Shown here in pieces: positions 9,428 to 46,774 of a DNA stretch of 64,000 bases. The stretch is taken from positions 186,001-250,000 of the forward strand of contig NZ_FRCS01000007.1 in NCBI RefSeq assembly GCF_900143005.1, given 5' to 3'. The notes under the pieces were generated by a model. That model searched no databases, was not told where the DNA came from, and saw only the letters and a program-made list of their open reading frames with translations. The stretch comes from Cryptosporangium aurantiacum (GTDB taxonomy: Bacteria > Actinomycetota > Actinomycetes > Mycobacteriales > Cryptosporangiaceae). Each line of letters starts with the position of its first letter. The first letter of the stretch is position 1. The translations under genes and the position numbers were made by a program.

Positions 9428-10872
9428 AGCGAGTACCGCACGGCGACGGTCTTGGTCTTCGTGTAGAAGCGCAGCGCCTCGGCGCCCTGCTCCTTGAACG
9501 GCGAACCGGAGTCGCCGAAACCACCGAACGGCATGTGGACGTCCCAGCCGGACGTCGGCAGGTTCACCGACACCTGGCCGACCTCGACGCGGTCGGCGAA
9601 CTCGTACGCACGCTGCAGGTTCGTGGTGAACACCGCGGCGGCCAGGCCGTAGACCGAGTCGTTGACCGCGTCCACGGCCTCGTCGAACCCCTCGACGACC
9701 CGCACCGCGATCACCGGCCCGAACACCTCGTCGCGCCAGATCGAGTGGCGCGCGTCCACGCCGGTGACGACCGTCGGTTCGACGTAACAGCCGTGCGTGA
9801 AGGCCTCACCGTCCGGGGCGCCACCGCCGACGCGGACCACGGCGCCCTCGCCGCGGGCCCGGTCGATGTGCTCGAGCACCTCGCTGCGATGGCGGGCGCT
9901 GACGACCGGCCCCATCGTGGTGCCCTCGGCGCCGCCCGGACCGAGCGTCACCTGCTGCGCGGCCTCGATCAGCCCGGCGATCAGCGGCTCGGCGACCGTC
10001 CAGTCGACGACGACGCGGCTGGTCGCGGTGCAGCGCTGCCCGGCCTGCCCGAACGAGGCGGCGGCGATCGTGCTGACCGCGGCTGCCAGGTCGGCGTCGG
10101 CGAGCACGGCGGTCGCGTTCTTGCCACCCATCTCGGTCTGTACCCGGACGTTGCGGCCGGCGAGCCGGTGCTGCAGCTGACGGCCGATCGCGGTGCTGCC
10201 GGTGAACGAGACCGCGGCGATCCGCGGGTCGTCCAGTAACGCCGCTTCGATCTCGCGGACCCGGCCGGTCACCACGCCGAGTACGCCCTCGGGCAGTCCG
10301 GCGGTCTCCAGGCTCCGGGCCAGGTGGTAGGCGACCAGCGGCGTCTCCGAGGCCGGCTTGAGAACGACCGCGTTCCCGGCGATGAGCGCGGGCGCGAGCT
10401 TGCGGGCCGGGGTGAGCAGCGGGTCGTTCCACGGCGTGACGAGCGTGACGACGCCGAGCGGCTCGCGGCGGACGCTGGTCTGCGTGCCGGGCCTGCCGTC
10501 GGCGATCAGCTCGCCGTAGGGCTGCCGTGCCCAGCTCGCGTAGTAGTCGAGGAAGTCGGCGGCCTTGGTCACCTCGACAGTCGCCTCGGCGAGCGTCTTG
10601 CCCATCTCGGCGACCAGATCGCCGGCGATCTCGGCGCTGCGGGCCCGGAGGTCGGCAGCGGCGCGCGCCATGATCTCGGCGCGCTGCAGCGGGTTGGTGG
10701 CGCGCCACCGGACGGCACCGAGCTCGGCGGCGTCGTAGCGGGCGGTGACCTCCGCGGCCGTCAGAGCAGGCACGCGCCCGACTACACGGCGGACGTCGGC
10801 GGGGTCGGTCACCTCGATGGACGCGACCCGCTCCGGACTATCCACCGGCTCCTGCGCCGACTGCAGTGGCAT
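9424..10872 (-). CDS. Aldehyde dehydrogenase family protein
   Basis: An NAD(P)+-dependent aldehyde dehydrogenase of 482 aa. The catalytic Cys281 lies in FGQAGQRCTAT, the general base Glu247 in TEMGGKN, and the Rossmann segment FTGST at about 220-225; the TPWNDPLLTPARK and GGFGDSG motifs are also intact. The start is the ATG giving MPLQSAQ, preceded by AGTGAGGGGG; the longer upstream frame includes the terminator hairpin and is rejected. It is the first gene of the five-gene operon. It resembles the semialdehyde dehydrogenase branch, so oxidation of the aldehyde formed by the ThDP enzyme is a reasonable inference. Confidence 0.92.
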   Translation of the reverse strand: MPLQSAQEPVDSPERVASIEVTDPADVRRVVGRVPALTAAEVTARYDAAELGAVRWRATNPLQRAEIMARAAADLRARSAEIAGDLVAEMGKTLAEATVEVTKAADFLDYYASWARQPYGELIADGRPGTQTSVRREPLGVVTLVTPWNDPLLTPARKLAPALIAGNAVVLKPASETPLVAYHLARSLETAGLPEGVLGVVTGRVREIEAALLDDPRIAAVSFTGSTAIGRQLQHRLAGRNVRVQTEMGGKNATAVLADADLAAAVSTIAAASFGQAGQRCTATSRVVVDWTVAEPLIAGLIEAAQQVTLGPGGAEGTTMGPVVSARHRSEVLEHIDRARGEGAVVRVGGGAPDGEAFTHGCYVEPTVVTGVDARHSIWRDEVFGPVIAVRVVEGFDEAVDAVNDSVYGLAAAVFTTNLQRAYEFADRVEVGQVSVNLPTSGWDVHMPFGGFGDSGSPFKEQGAEALRFYTKTKTVAVRYSL

Positions 10873-10987
10873 GAGTCGCGGCCCCCTCACTGAGAAATCA
10901 TTGGAGATCTCGATCTGGTCGAGCGGGCTTAATCGTAAGAGCGCCGCGACGACGCGGAAGACCTCGTTAATGCAAGCTAAGGTGTAC

Positions 10988-11025
10988 CGCCGTGCTGGTC
11001 GGGGAGGCTTTCCGACCGCACGGCG
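10988..11025. terminator. Strong hairpin downstream of the hemerythrin-like gene
   Basis: CGCCGTGC-T-GGTCGG at 10988-11002 pairs with CCGACC-GCACGGCG at 11012-11025, giving 14 bp with one bulged T and a 9-nt loop. It follows the 3' end of the hemerythrin-like gene on the minus strand and precedes the aldehyde dehydrogenase operon, separating the two transcripts. The remaining 115 bp to the dehydrogenase start should hold that operon's promoter; I could not assign convincing -35/-10 boxes there. Confidence 0.65.
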
Positions 11026-11110
11026 CACGACATGATGAGGGCGTGACTCACTATTCGGAATAGCGGAAGATATGTGCGGCGCGCGGGAGTCCGCGCATTT
11101 CGCGCGCCGT

Positions 11111-11674
11111 TCAGCCGCGGGCGGCGCGACTCCAGTCGCTGACCGCGTCGCGCGCCCGGTCGAACAGCGCGAGCGGCGGCCCGGCGACCAGGTTGACGAT
11201 CGCCGACTCTCCCGCCGCCGGGTGCGGACGCGTGGGCGCGACCGCCTCCGCGGCCTTCACCGCACCGGCCATGCGCCGCAGCCGAGCGGGGTCGATCGTC
11301 CGCCGCAGCGCGGGGAACTCCTCCTGCTCCTCGCGCGTGGCGTGCTGCAGCACCGCCCGCTCCAGCGCGGCGAACCGGGTGTCGAAGTCGGCTGCCTCGG
11401 TGCCCAGGTCGTGCAGGTCGGAGAGCACGCGCTTGGCGTCGTGCTCCTCGTGGAGCCTGGCCTTGATCACGGCGTCCCCGGCGGCGTCCCTGGCTGCCGG
11501 GTGGACGACCTGCTCCTCGGCGGCCTCATGGACGGCCAGCAGCCGGACGAGTTGCCGGAACGCGGTCCGCTTGGCGTCGCCGTCGGCGGCCTTGACCTCG
11601 GCGAACAGCGCCTTGATCTGCTTGTGCTGGTCGAGCAGGAGTTCAACGACGTCCTGGTCCTTGGCGCTCACCAT
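11111..11674 (-). CDS. Hemerythrin HHE cation-binding domain protein
   Basis: A four-helix-bundle protein of 187 aa with the hemerythrin ligand pattern: LDQHKQIK in helix 1, VHEAAEEQVVHP in helix 2, LHEEHDAK in helix 3 and LQHATREEQEEFP in helix 4. These supply the His/Glu ligands for a non-haem di-iron centre. The C-terminal 50 residues are Ala/Pro-rich and lie beyond the domain. Such single-domain proteins in actinobacteria have been linked to oxygen, NO or peroxide sensing. It appears monocistronic, with a terminator after it and the NACHT gene ending 35 bp before its start on the same strand. Confidence 0.9.
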   Translation of the reverse strand: MVSAKDQDVVELLLDQHKQIKALFAEVKAADGDAKRTAFRQLVRLLAVHEAAEEQVVHPAARDAAGDAVIKARLHEEHDAKRVLSDLHDLGTEAADFDTRFAALERAVLQHATREEQEEFPALRRTIDPARLRRMAGAVKAAEAVAPTRPHPAAGESAIVNLVAGPPLALFDRARDAVSDWSRAARG

Positions 11675-42546: not shown

Positions 42547-43203
42547 TCACCGGGTCAGCTGACGAGCGAGCGCCCGCACCATCTCGGCCGCGAGGACCGC
42601 CTGCCCGGCGGTGGAGAAGTGGATCCGGTCGGCGCTGAGCAGGTCGTCCCGCGCGTTGACCGGGTGGTCCTCCATGTCGACGAGGACCGCGTCGAACTCC
42701 GCGGCCAGCGCGCGGACGAGCGCGTTGAGCCGCCGGATCCGGTCGCGCCAGTCCGGGAACACCGGGACGACGTACTCGGACGAGAGCGTGAACGTGGTGA
42801 GCAGCGCGCCGCTGGTGGCCGACCGCGTGTAGAGGACGCGCAGCAGCCGGGCGATCCGCTCGTAGTCCGGCTGTCGCCGCAGCAGGTCGTTGGCGCCGCA
42901 CGGCAGGTGCAGCAGGTCCGGCCCGAACGAGAGCGCCTCGTCGAGCTGGGAGCCGAGCGTGTCCGCGGTCGTGGCGCCGACGACCGCGGTGTTGAGGTAC
43001 GCGAGCCGGGGATGGACGTCACGGAGGTGGCCGGCGAGCCGGTCGGACCATCCGGCGGCCCGGTAGCCGGGGATGGCGTCGCCGGTGCCCGCGGAGAGGC
43101 TGTCGCCGATCACCGCGTACCGACGCCAGGGCGCGGCGGCGAGTAACGCGGACGCGCTGTCCGGCGGGAGGCACATCGGGTCGGCGTCCTCGAGAATCAT
43201 CAT
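42547..43203 (-). CDS. SGNH/GDSL hydrolase
   Basis: A protein of 218 aa with blocks I-V of the SGNH fold: VIGDSLSAG (nucleophile Ser), a block II Gly region around NTAVVGATTADTLGSQ, CGANDLL (block III Asn) and the terminal SADRIHFSTAGQ with Asp and His. It has no signal peptide, so it is probably a cytoplasmic esterase or acyl hydrolase. The ATG at 43203 is 6 bases after a TATTCT -10 box on this strand, suggesting a leaderless mRNA. The gene heads the SGNH-TetR-phoD operon. Confidence 0.88.
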   Translation of the reverse strand: MMILEDADPMCLPPDSASALLAAAPWRRYAVIGDSLSAGTGDAIPGYRAAGWSDRLAGHLRDVHPRLAYLNTAVVGATTADTLGSQLDEALSFGPDLLHLPCGANDLLRRQPDYERIARLLRVLYTRSATSGALLTTFTLSSEYVVPVFPDWRDRIRRLNALVRALAAEFDAVLVDMEDHPVNARDDLLSADRIHFSTAGQAVLAAEMVRALARQLTR

Positions 43204-43233: not shown

Positions 43234-43270
43234 TTTTCAGCAAACGGAAGATGAACAACTGGCATCCGAA

Positions 43271-43298
43271 TTGTCCTACTGCGACCACTGTGTACTCT
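43271..43298 (+). promoter_or_regulatory. Putative promoter of the PstS-like gene
   Basis: TTGTCC at 43271-43276 and TACTCT at 43293-43298 are 16 bp apart, with TG before the -10. Predicted transcription start is about 43305, giving a 5' leader of about 30 nt with AGGAG at 43315-43319 and the ATG at 43334. This supports the downstream start over an earlier in-frame ATG at 43202. Confidence 0.4.
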
Positions 43299-43333: not shown

Positions 43334-44887
43334 ATGCTCAGCAGCATCGGCGACAACGCCGACACGATTCTGACGTTCCTCACCACGATCGCGACGCTGG
43401 TCACCGCGGCCGGCTGGCTGTTCGAGCGGGTCAGCAGCCGGAGCCGCAAGCGGTTGAACTACCGGGTGCACTGGAACGAGTCGCTCACCCGGCCCGAGGG
43501 AGAGCCGTTCGCCGACGATCTCGTACTGAGCCACAAGGGCGACGTGGTCAAGGACCCCCAGGTCGCGGTGATCCGGGTCGAGAACACCGGCGGAACGTTG
43601 ACCCGGGACGACTTCGACCAGCCGCTGGTATTCGGGTTCGGTAAGCGCCAGGTCATCCACGCGGTCGTCGGGGAGACGGAGGGCGCCAAGCTCAAGAACG
43701 CGTTCGGCGAGCTCGGCAAGGAACCGGTGTCCACCTCCGAGCTGCGCCTTCCGGCCGTGGAGATGCGACACGGCGACCGCTTCAAGCTCACCGTGCTGCT
43801 CACCGGCGTCCGCGACGAGGTCACCGGTGCCTGGGATCACCGGGATGGCGGCCGCCTGATCGAGGAGGAACGTCGGGTCCGGCGCAGCCGCCGTGGCCTG
43901 GCCCTCGGTGGTGCGACGCTCGCGTTACTGGGCCTGCTCCTCGGCCTGATCATCGTGCCGTCCGACTCCGAGCCGCGCCGGGTCGCGATCAGCTGCCACG
44001 CCGGCACCGTCTCGATCAGCGGCTCCACCGCACTCAAGCCGGCCATCGAGACGCTGGCGGGCGAGTTCAAGAAACGGTGCCGGGAGGCGAGCCCGGACGC
44101 CGAACCGCAGATCCTGGTCAGCGAGTCCGGGAGCCGGACCGCGCTGGACCGCCTCGTCAAGCTCGGCACCGCGGCCACCAACCAGGAGATCCAGCGCACC
44201 TGGCTGGTGATGTACGACGGCACCGCGGCCGACCCTGGCCGCGTCCTCGCCCGGCACACGCTCGGCATCGGGATCTTCGGCGTCGTCGCGCACCGGGGCG
44301 CGGTCCCGGACGGCGGCCTCTCCCGCGAGGAGGTCCAGCGGCTCTGGGACGGCCGGGCGTCCACGTACGACGTCGTCGGCGGCACCGCCGACCTGGAGGT
44401 CAAGCTCGTCAGCAGGCAGGCGGGCTCCGGGACGCGCGCCACGTTCGAGCAGACCGTGCTCGGGAAACGGCCGGCGGCGGCGCCGGAGACGTCGTCGGAC
44501 TGCAACGGCCTGGACCCGAAGCCGAAGTCGGACGTCGTCCACTGCACGCTGCGGACCACCGACGACGTGCTCCGGGTCGTCGACTCGCTGGACGGGGCGA
44601 TCGGCTACGCGGACGTCCGGACCGCGGCGAAGTACCCGGACGTCGAGGTGCTGCGGCTCGACGGCTACGGCCCGAGCGAGGAGGACGTGGCGTCCGAGGC
44701 CTATCCGTTCTGGGCCGTGGAGAACCTCTACACGTTCGGCGAACCGCCCGCGGGCACCGCGCTCAAGGACTTCCTCGCGTTCCTCGCCACCGACGAAGCG
44801 CGCGAGATCCTCACCGAGAAGTTCGGCTACCTTCCGTGCAGTCACTTCAGCCGGAGTGAGCCCGCTCGGGCATGCGCATCGAAGTGA
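43334..44887 (+). CDS. Two-TM membrane protein with extracytoplasmic PstS-like substrate-binding domain
   Basis: A protein of 517 aa. One TM helix is near the N-terminus (about 10-33). A cytoplasmic alpha/beta domain follows (about 40-175), rich in strands (VHWNESLTRPEGEPF, VAVIRVENTGGTLTRDDF). A second TM lies at about 188-209. The remainder (about 215-517) is a PBP-like domain of the PstS type with SISGSTALKPAIETLAGEF and RQAGSGTRATFEQTVLG, the phosphate-binding loops. It is anchored, not a lipoprotein, and lacks the Pst permease genes. It may therefore be a sensor of phosphate or another oxyanion. PhoD-type phosphodiesterases flank it within a few kb. Confidence 0.82.
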   Translation: MLSSIGDNADTILTFLTTIATLVTAAGWLFERVSSRSRKRLNYRVHWNESLTRPEGEPFADDLVLSHKGDVVKDPQVAVIRVENTGGTLTRDDFDQPLVFGFGKRQVIHAVVGETEGAKLKNAFGELGKEPVSTSELRLPAVEMRHGDRFKLTVLLTGVRDEVTGAWDHRDGGRLIEEERRVRRSRRGLALGGATLALLGLLLGLIIVPSDSEPRRVAISCHAGTVSISGSTALKPAIETLAGEFKKRCREASPDAEPQILVSESGSRTALDRLVKLGTAATNQEIQRTWLVMYDGTAADPGRVLARHTLGIGIFGVVAHRGAVPDGGLSREEVQRLWDGRASTYDVVGGTADLEVKLVSRQAGSGTRATFEQTVLGKRPAAAPETSSDCNGLDPKPKSDVVHCTLRTTDDVLRVVDSLDGAIGYADVRTAAKYPDVEVLRLDGYGPSEEDVASEAYPFWAVENLYTFGEPPAGTALKDFLAFLATDEAREILTEKFGYLPCSHFSRSEPARACASK

Positions 44888-44935: not shown

Positions 44936-46774
44936 ATGCGGCTGGTGTCGGGCCACTGGCTCACCCTTCCGAGCACCGTGCCGGTCCTCCGGCACCACGC
45001 GGTGCGGGTCGTCGTGTGCGCGGTGGCGGCCGGGACCCTGGTCGTGCTGATCGGCGCACCGTACTGGCGCACCCACCCGGTGCACGGTGTCGTCGCCACG
45101 CTCGCCTGCGCCGGGTTCGCCGCGGCCGGTGCGATGCTCTCGACCGGCGGTCCGCGGCGGCAGCTCACCGGCCGGTTACTGATCGCGGGCGGGTTCTGCT
45201 GGCCGTTCGCCTGGATGGTCTCCTGGGGCGGCGGCCCGGGCCCGATGCTCTCGTTCCTCGCCCAGTTCGGCTTCTTCGTGTTCCTCGGCACCGCGATCCT
45301 GTCGTACCCCGAGGGCCGGATCACCCGGCGGCAGGACCGGGCCTGGGTGGTCGTCGCGATCGGCGTGCTGATCGGCACGGAAGTCGCGCTCCAGTCCGTC
45401 ACCGCGCCCGAGTGGGTGGGCGTGCACACCGGCGTCTCCTGGCTGCGGGTGGCGGAGAACCGGACCGCGTTCGAGGTCGGCATCCGGAGTCAGGCCGTCG
45501 CGCAGGTGCTGCTCGCCACCTGGTTCGCCTGGCTGCTCTGGCGCCGCGCCCGCTGGCTGTCCAACCTCGACCGGCGGATCGCGATCCCGGTGCTGGTGGC
45601 GACGGCCGCGCTCGGGCTGGTCGCGTCGGTCCAGTCGCTCTTGCAGCCCGAGGCCTGGACGAACGTCGCGGAGCTGCAGGCGTTCTATTTCAACCAGGGC
45701 GTGATTGCGCTGGTCGTGTCGCTGGCCGTGGTCTCCGGCGCGCTGCGTGACCGCTGGTGGGAGCTGAGCGCGCCGTACCGCGTCGTCCGGATCACCTCGT
45801 CCGGGACGTCGGTCGCGACGGTCCGGGGTGCGCTGGCCGACGCGCTCCGCGACGGGACCCTGCGCCTGTACTTCTGGGCGCCTGCCGAGCACGGGTGGGT
45901 CGACCCGGCCGGCCGGCCGGCTGCGCCGGTCCCTACCGGCACGGCCGGCGCTGCGGACCCGGCCGAGACGGCCGACCCGGCCGAGGACCGCCGGTGGCGG
46001 ATCTCGATCGCCGGCGAGCAGCACCCACTGGCGATCGTCGACGTCGACGCCTCGCTGCGGCGCCGTCCGGTTCTGGTGGACGCCGTCCTGCGCGCCGGTG
46101 GCCAGGCGCTGCTCACCGCCCAGTTGCAGGCCGCGGCCAGCGCGCACCTCGCCCAGGTGCTGGCCGCCCAGGACCGGCTGGAGGAGAACAAGCTCGCCGA
46201 GCGGTCCCGGCTGGAACAGGAGCTGCGCGACGGGGCGCAACACCGCCTGGGCGCGCTCGCGGGTCGCCTGGACCGGCTGAGCGAGCAGACGTCCGACCCG
46301 GTGGCGACCGTCGTCGCCACCGAGTGCCGGGACGAGGTGCGCGCGACCCTGCGGGAGCTGGAGCACCTGGCGCGCGGGCTGCTCCCGCCACAGCTGCGCG
46401 AACACGGGCTCGGACCGGCGATGGAGGAGGTGGCCGCGCGGCTCCGGCTGCCGGTGCGGTTCGTGGTCTGCCCGGGACGGTTTCCGGCCGTGGTCGAGGC
46501 GACGCTCTACTACGCGCTCTGCGAGGGCCTGACGAACGTCGCGAAGTACGCGCCCGAGGCGACCGTGCAGGTCGCGGTCACGCTCGCCGACGGCTGGCTG
46601 ACCGCTCTGGTGGTGGACGACGGGCCGGGCGGCGCCGTGGCGAAACCGGGCGGCGGGCTGGCAGGCGTCGAGCGGCGGGCTCGCGCGCTCGCCGGGTGGG
46701 TGCGGGTGGACAGTTCCGCCGAGGGCACCCGCCTGTGCGTCACCGTCCCGGCGGACGCTGCCCTAGTGGCGTGA
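44936..46774 (+). CDS. Histidine-kinase-like membrane sensor lacking the canonical phospho-acceptor His
   Basis: A protein of 612 aa with about eight TM helices (residues 20-275), a variable domain (about 280-400), then a HisKA_3/HATPase module. The dimerisation motif reads SRLEQELRDGAQHRLGALAG: the His of the usual ELHDG is Arg431. The ATP-binding half is intact: EGLTNVAKYAP (N box) and DDGPGGA...GGGLAGVERRARALAG (G boxes). It may phosphorylate through the alternative His434-435 region, act as an allosteric sensor, or be inactive. No response regulator gene is adjacent. It overlaps the 3' end of the convergent phoD copy 2 by 35 bp. Confidence 0.85.
   Translation: MRLVSGHWLTLPSTVPVLRHHAVRVVVCAVAAGTLVVLIGAPYWRTHPVHGVVATLACAGFAAAGAMLSTGGPRRQLTGRLLIAGGFCWPFAWMVSWGGGPGPMLSFLAQFGFFVFLGTAILSYPEGRITRRQDRAWVVVAIGVLIGTEVALQSVTAPEWVGVHTGVSWLRVAENRTAFEVGIRSQAVAQVLLATWFAWLLWRRARWLSNLDRRIAIPVLVATAALGLVASVQSLLQPEAWTNVAELQAFYFNQGVIALVVSLAVVSGALRDRWWELSAPYRVVRITSSGTSVATVRGALADALRDGTLRLYFWAPAEHGWVDPAGRPAAPVPTGTAGAADPAETADPAEDRRWRISIAGEQHPLAIVDVDASLRRRPVLVDAVLRAGGQALLTAQLQAAASAHLAQVLAAQDRLEENKLAERSRLEQELRDGAQHRLGALAGRLDRLSEQTSDPVATVVATECRDEVRATLRELEHLARGLLPPQLREHGLGPAMEEVAARLRLPVRFVVCPGRFPAVVEATLYYALCEGLTNVAKYAPEATVQVAVTLADGWLTALVVDDGPGGAVAKPGGGLAGVERRARALAGWVRVDSSAEGTRLCVTVPADAALVA

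Follow-up and report, generated by a model that had tools for sequence, protein, structure and literature searches.

The gene at 43334–44887 (+) of the window, the whole 64,000-nt stretch of Cryptosporangium aurantiacum DNA that was analyzed, encodes a 517-amino-acid protein, with the coordinates of the ORF as originally called. On balance, and with moderate confidence, this protein is read as a membrane-anchored receptor derived from PstS, which would be controlled by PhoP and would bind an extracellular oxyanion, with inorganic phosphate as the likeliest ligand. An N-terminal module and two transmembrane (TM) helices precede the PstS-type domain, the residues of its anion site are conserved, a PHO-box-like element is found upstream at the level of the motif, and no permease genes lie nearby. 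The protein had been described in an earlier note as a PstS-like domain joined to two TM helices and a cytoplasmic domain, with no permease genes, and had been taken for a receptor that transmits the binding of phosphate or another anion across the membrane.

Architecture of the protein and its anion site

The gene and the parts of its product are located in the window as follows.

43334–44887, + strand: whole gene, two-TM protein of 517 aa with an extracellular PstS-type domain
43340–43444, + strand: predicted TM1 (residues 3–37), N-terminus outside; AlphaFold2 helix, positive-inside in 37/37
43439–43882, + strand: predicted cytoplasmic beta-sandwich (residues 36–183 as searched), without a Pfam family
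43865–43954, + strand: predicted TM2 (residues 178–207); AlphaFold2, K+R before the helix exceeding K+R after it in 34/37
43997–44875, + strand: predicted extracellular PstS/PBP_like_2 domain (residues 222–514) with conserved oxyanion-site residues

The start at 43334 is supported by the relative in genome G002, which is 81% identical and uses the homologous start codon. Starting instead at the in-frame ATG further upstream (43073) would make the gene run into the divergent GDSL gene (42547–43203). A mis-called start, which the earlier note had named as a way in which the N-terminal part could prove spurious, was dismissed, as that part is kept in homologues. Chance resemblance or a fused ORF was also considered and rejected because the full length is conserved in homologues. 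Moreover, among the 394 genomes of the class, 38 (own genome counted) encode a protein that spans both halves, and this excludes a mis-called fusion.

The AlphaFold2 model, which was built on a 37-member alignment, placed TM1 at residues 3–37, the beta domain at 40–177, TM2 at 178–207, and the PBP domain at 224–514. The mean pLDDT was 86.2, and the pTM was 0.59, which makes the relative placing of the parts uncertain. The alignment (A1) comprised 37 of 42 proteins; L052 was omitted because of its uncertain start, L061 because of its long tail, L065 as a near copy of L064, and L068 and L069 because of their HTH-like module. Lys and Arg residues were more numerous after TM1 than before it in all 37 rows, and more numerous before TM2 than after it in 34 of the 37. 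Based on these positive-inside counts, the beta domain was placed inside the cell. The outer part contained 6.0 Cys per member on average, with six positions invariant, and the beta domain contained 0.16, a distribution that fits an oxidizing outside and a reducing inside. Thus, all the parts described in the earlier note, the PBP-like domain, the two TM helices, and the N-terminal cytoplasmic domain, were recovered from the model and the K+R counts. The predicted layout is that of a transmembrane receptor, with an outer ligand domain, a TM helix, and an inner domain in a single chain.

The outer domain was assigned from both sequence and fold. Residues 222–488 scored 63.6 bits with PBP_like_2 (PF12849), whose cut-off of 27 was also passed by all five relatives scanned. 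The cut-off of the PstS model TIGR02136 (206.6 bits) was missed, the score being 92.2 bits (93.4 in the genome search). Phosphate-binding proteins made up nearly all PDB sequence matches of the protein, the best being PstS proteins. When the predicted outer domain was searched with Foldseek, PstS structures ranked at the top, 4lat with E 9.1e-19 and a TM-score of 0.84 by target length, and the sulfite-sensing domain of YeiE appeared at rank 39. The family profile matched 34 distinct PDB sequences (E ≤ 0.001), and 30 of these had phosphate-binding, phosphate-transport, or DING names; of the remaining four, 1twy is named only as a periplasmic substrate-binding protein, one is Sll0540, and two are named alkaline phosphatase.

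Across the 37 rows, G230, S231, D295, R361, S365, G366, and R368 were invariant, and T232 (35/37), S267 (36/37), and T367 (34/37) were nearly so. In the sequence alignment, the conserved site residues fall on the GST, GS, SRD, and SGTR motifs of 4q8r, a solved phosphate-binding protein, with the Asp aligning less cleanly to 4exl and 4ecf than to 4q8r. The equivalents of these residues bind phosphate in E. coli PstS. Loss of the ligand Asp, as read from a phmmer alignment, was ruled out because the family alignment puts the Asp at D295. The phosphate-site residues on which the earlier note had made its reading depend are therefore conserved, as judged from the 37-row alignment and the fold match.

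The predicted fold of the cytoplasmic domain is an Ig-like or CBM-like sandwich. It has no Pfam family, the best E-value being 0.016 and obtained with only one of the 37 members. Foldseek gave no match at E ≤ 0.001, the PDB sequence search reached E 0.13 at best, and the best result of the VIA fold search (9ifr, Z 7.6, rmsd 3.2 over 108 residues) was in the commonly seen range. Thus, no known output fold was found in the inner domain by Pfam, PDB sequence, or fold searches. Within its approximately 150 residues, R44, V45, R81, N84, G86, P140, and L156 were invariant. In receptors with PBP sensor domains, such as the BvgS-type Venus-flytrap kinases, the ligand-binding PBP is joined covalently to a membrane-spanning protein. 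The window protein likewise joins a PBP domain to a membrane-spanning chain; however, this chain has no kinase or known output domain, and its two TMs flank the predicted cytoplasmic beta-sandwich.

Separation from the Pst transporter and range of the family

In the genome of the window, a PstS gene is followed by pstC, pstA, pstB, and two PhoU-like genes on a different contig, C12. Accordingly, the idea that the protein is the main PstS of the genome was rejected. When the genome's own PstC, PstA, and PhoU were searched by tblastn (E ≤ 1e-8), none was matched in the 120 family contexts, and the pst locus used as a control was matched. The contexts consisted of the window together with 39 loci with up to 19.5 kb and 80 from Streptomyces with up to 5 kb on each side. 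The absence of permease genes reported in the earlier note was hence confirmed for the window and extended to the 119 other contexts. PstB matches were obtained in 18 contexts and are uninformative because ABC ATPases are common. A PstS match, determined with the first 90 residues of the genome's own PstS (E ≤ 0.001), was present in all 30 family-bearing genomes searched, namely 28 from the class search together with G002 and G003.

The outer domain has the same fold and oxyanion-site residues as the PstS lipoproteins (TIGR02136/PF12849; S. pneumoniae PstS1, 4exl/4lat). In contrast to these, the window protein has no lipobox adjoining a signal peptide and carries two TM helices, a cytoplasmic beta domain, and six invariant Cys; moreover, it has no adjoining Pst permease genes and scores far below the TIGR02136 cut-off. 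On inspection, no lipoprotein signal with a lipobox Cys was seen, and TM1 leads into the cytoplasmic domain. C221, approximately 14 residues past TM2, is one of the six invariant Cys.

Family matches (E ≤ 1e-10) were found in at least 43 of 394 genomes of the class and at least 8 of 138 genera, these counts being lower bounds because three candidates were scored per genome. In 38 of the 43 genomes, own genome counted, both halves were spanned. As for the remaining five, the N-terminus differs in G245 and G358, the member of G280 starts at residue 74, that of G146 is broken across two reading frames, and in G136 just the terminal portion of the PBP half is seen. Within the organism's own family, four of five genomes gave a match (E ≤ 0.001), three of them at full length with the own genome counted; the match in G004 was weak and partial, and G001 had none. 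A pattern scan of named GTDB contigs yielded 282 relatives, of which 80, all from Streptomyces, were kept, and it carries little information on the range of the family because the patterns were derived from Streptomyces-like members.

The beta domain was also searched for by itself. Profile A3, which covers it alone, matched at least 25 of 246 genomes (15 candidates per genome), and 24 of these were also in the class family search. The exception, G174 (L180, 1255–1968), has an ORF of 237 aa in which a TM-like stretch and the beta domain occur without the PBP domain; this ORF adjoins an Mrr-TIR protein that resembles a defence gene. Across the phylum, profile A4 matched at least 7 of 296 genomes (12 candidates per genome), each with a family member in the class search. 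In the plasmid search, none of the 18 records covered 80% of the query, and the PBP half only was represented among the matches listed. PADLOC returned nothing informative.

Two relatives have a different inner part. In L068 (8986–10464) and L069 (8972–10516) (−), a PBP domain with the family motifs stands behind a TM-like stretch and an N-terminal XRE-HTH-like module. Pfam HTH_31 matched this module with E-values of only 0.12 and 0.28, and a PDB search with it gave nothing useful. L068 and L069 may possibly be one-component regulators that respond to an anion. If the module is an HTH, fusion of the PBP domain to an inner part able to signal would have happened two or more times. In the actinobacterial proteins L214, L215, and L218–L220, the module is likewise followed by a TM-like stretch, and the C-terminal domains are different ones. 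These XRE-like HTH-TM proteins have a layout in common with L068 and L069, in which the PBP domain is outside, whereas TM1 and the beta-sandwich take the place of the module in the window protein. In the family member L061 (8368–10644, +), the frame continues approximately 250 residues past the usual end.

The upstream repeat and the neighboring genes

The PHO box of Streptomyces is described as two direct repeats of GTTCACCC, in 11-nt units (PMC7866108, PMC7244524). The following features of the window lie upstream of the gene and around it.

43239–43256, − strand: PHO-box-like direct repeat (two 7-bp units, 11-bp period); matrix and plain consensus
43293–43298, + strand: possible −10 hexamer TACTCT, 36 nt past the box; read from the sequence
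44936–46774, + strand: probable histidine kinase of HisKA_3 type, 48 bp downstream of the PBP gene; sub-threshold Pfam scores
40327–42240, − strand: ORF with PhoD-like phosphatase, probably starting further downstream than listed; PF09423, 334 bits
46740–48362, − strand: PhoD-like phosphatase; PF09423, 328 bits
42547–43203, − strand: GDSL-like lipase, divergent neighbor; PF13472, 85.7 bits

For the plain consensus, pairs of GTTCACC units at an 11-bp spacing were scored on both strands of the 200 bp upstream and the best was taken, with a maximum of 14. The test covered 121 of 122 family upstream regions, as one had no 200 clean bases, and the controls were 222 genes that a simple ORF caller predicted in these loci and that had 150 bp or more free upstream. 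A score of at least 11/14 was reached by 88 of the 121 family regions, 5 of the 222 controls, and 17 of 605 dinucleotide shuffles, and a score of at least 12/14 by 39, 0, and 2, respectively. Among the pstS promoters (300 bp) used as the positive control, 27 of 30 reached at least 11/14. Since Streptomyces promoters are related, the promoters were grouped into 31 clusters (the largest with 70), each represented by its first member by name, and scored with a matrix built only from 29 pstS sites. At thresholds passed by 11, 3, and 1 of the 222 controls, 26, 16, and 8 of the 31 representatives passed, respectively (Mann–Whitney p 3.8e-16 for 31 representatives against 222 controls). A candidate Pho-regulon box is thus found in the family, as far as the motif can tell.

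The matrix score of the window site (14.58) was higher than that of all 222 controls, and its plain score was 10/14, a value reached by 38 of the 222. The site also aligns with the position of the G003 site in an alignment of three upstream regions. The putative box of the window is argued from the matrix score and the G003 alignment, a plain 10/14 being insufficient by itself. The family boxes lay on the minus strand in 62/62 cases at the middle matrix threshold and in 84/88 by the plain consensus; the best pstS site was on the plus strand in 30/30, opposite to the family sites. In G001, which has no PBP gene, PhoD and the kinase are divergent neighbors with no box between them (best 8/14). 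In this single case, the box tracks the PBP gene rather than PhoD.

A TA[CT]NGT hexamer was found 28–58 nt past the box in 76 of 98 family regions and in 33 of 1960 single-base shuffles, with the pattern chosen after viewing these sequences and many of the 98 being related Streptomyces promoters. The 98 were those of the 121 regions with a minus-strand box of at least 10/14 and enough sequence behind it. The spacing was 38 nt in 41 matches and 48–49 nt in 30, approximately one helical turn apart. Outside the 80 named loci, the hexamer was weaker (20/35), and the TACTCT of the window departs from the family pattern. If the hexamer is a −10 element, the box would lie upstream of the −35 region, in the position of an activator.

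In the window, G002, and G003, the PBP gene has a PhoD gene on each side and is followed immediately by the kinase gene; the genome of the window has four PhoD matches in all, including the two that flank the PBP gene here. G001 likewise has two PhoD genes around its kinase. That the PBP gene and the neighboring histidine kinase form an obligate pair was ruled out, as G001 keeps the kinase without the PBP gene. In the H-box of the kinase at 44936–46774 (ELRDGAQ), the phospho-acceptor His is replaced by Arg in the window and in G002, and G003 has His.

Other kinases are found beside the gene in other lineages. Among the 70 Streptomyces loci with at least 2.5 kb upstream, a Ser/Thr kinase (STK) gene on the same strand ends within 400 bp upstream in 51; the other 19 have no STK within that distance, but two of them, L132 and L146, have a kinase downstream. 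A HAMP-repeat kinase cluster lies upstream on the same strand in the genus g28 loci L043, L048, and L052 (Pfam on the L043 copy only), and a KdpD/KdpE-type cluster is convergent beside the gene in L038–L041 and further off in L042 (Pfam on L038 only). A PhoX phosphatase gene is upstream in L047, and a gene of the same cluster is found in L050. Taken as raw adjacency across the typed loci, the link with kinases is no more than suggestive. The Streptomyces loci have a further neighbor. In L049, the gene at 10482–11282, adjoining those of YbaB and RecR, encodes a SLATT_2 protein (339 bits; SMODS and SLOG-associating 2TM effector domain 2), and homologues are encoded convergently, downstream of the PBP gene, in many of the 80 loci. 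In S. coelicolor, the putative orthologue of the PBP gene would lie near recR, at about SCO3618–SCO3621.

Sensing, uptake, and the choice of ligand

In the proposed mechanism, the outer domain would close on the anion, and its open or closed state would travel via TM2 (and TM1) to the cytoplasmic beta-sandwich. The latter would probably work through a partner protein, for which the adjacent membrane kinases are the best candidates, that is, Ser/Thr kinases in Streptomyces and histidine kinases in some other lineages. Against a kinase partner, the neighboring kinases differ between lineages, and the kinase of the window and G002 has no H-box His. Of the receptor interpretation in the earlier note, the link to phosphate gained support from the site residues, the PHO-box-like element, and the neighboring phosphatases, whereas the transmission of a signal remains something that we infer, with the HTH-like inner parts of two relatives and the kinase neighbors as indirect support.

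The same site residues and promoter would suit uptake equally well as sensing. The two-TM part might merely be an anchor, with the PstS domain feeding a PstCA encoded elsewhere as an accessory that is induced by phosphate starvation. PstS, PstC, and PstA are indeed encoded elsewhere in the window's own genome, a PstS match is present in 30/30 genomes, and PhoD or PhoX phosphatases are near the gene in some lineages. However, an anchor needs no conserved cytoplasmic domain of approximately 150 residues, a permease gene adjoins in 0/120 contexts, and the inner part is an HTH-like module in two relatives. A tethered scavenger is hence considered unlikely, though it retains appreciable weight. The identity of the ligand was weighed in the same manner. 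Further ligands are known within the PBP superfamily, the sulfite-sensing YeiE domain is among the Foldseek matches (rank 39), and the TIGR02136 cut-off was missed (92.2 against 206.6 bits), all of which would be in line with a receptor or binder that keeps the oxyanion pocket for another anion, such as arsenate, phosphonate, a nucleotide, tungstate, or sulfite. In contrast, 30 of the 34 PDB matches bear phosphate-binding, phosphate-transport, or DING names, Asp is found at position 295 in 37/37, and the promoter is PHO-box-like. Another anion is therefore regarded as improbable.

In a further rival reading, the promoter repeats serve a regulator different from PhoP, and the link to phosphate starvation is spurious; similar repeats could also be used by other regulators of the OmpR or AfsR type. 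The family boxes (62/62 minus) are opposite in strand to the pstS boxes (30/30 plus), and the family sites that were listed often read GTTCGCC/GTTCAAC rather than GTTCACC. However, a matrix derived solely from pstS sites separates the family from the controls (p 3.8e-16), and a different regulator is judged rather unlikely. The reading of the protein as a PhoP-controlled receptor, most likely for phosphate, is thus retained. In its most specific form, a dedicated PhoP-induced receptor would report outside phosphate through a new beta-sandwich module to a membrane kinase, in parallel to PstSCAB-PhoU-PhoR. This form is put forward tentatively, as a possibility that is more doubtful than the receptor itself; if it is true, external phosphate would be coupled to Ser/Thr phosphorylation in Streptomyces.

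The literature search, the scope of which ended before many subscription papers and PhoP target lists, found no description of the family, and a PHO-box-bearing PstS-type membrane protein without a permease is apparently undescribed. The best known route of phosphate sensing is via the Pst transporter. In Streptomyces, phosphate limitation is a trigger for antibiotic biosynthesis (PMC7244524). The present family would be a second phosphate input or else a hidden component of the uptake machinery. Apart from the ordinary transporter, it probably provides soil actinobacteria with a second way to sense or capture phosphate.
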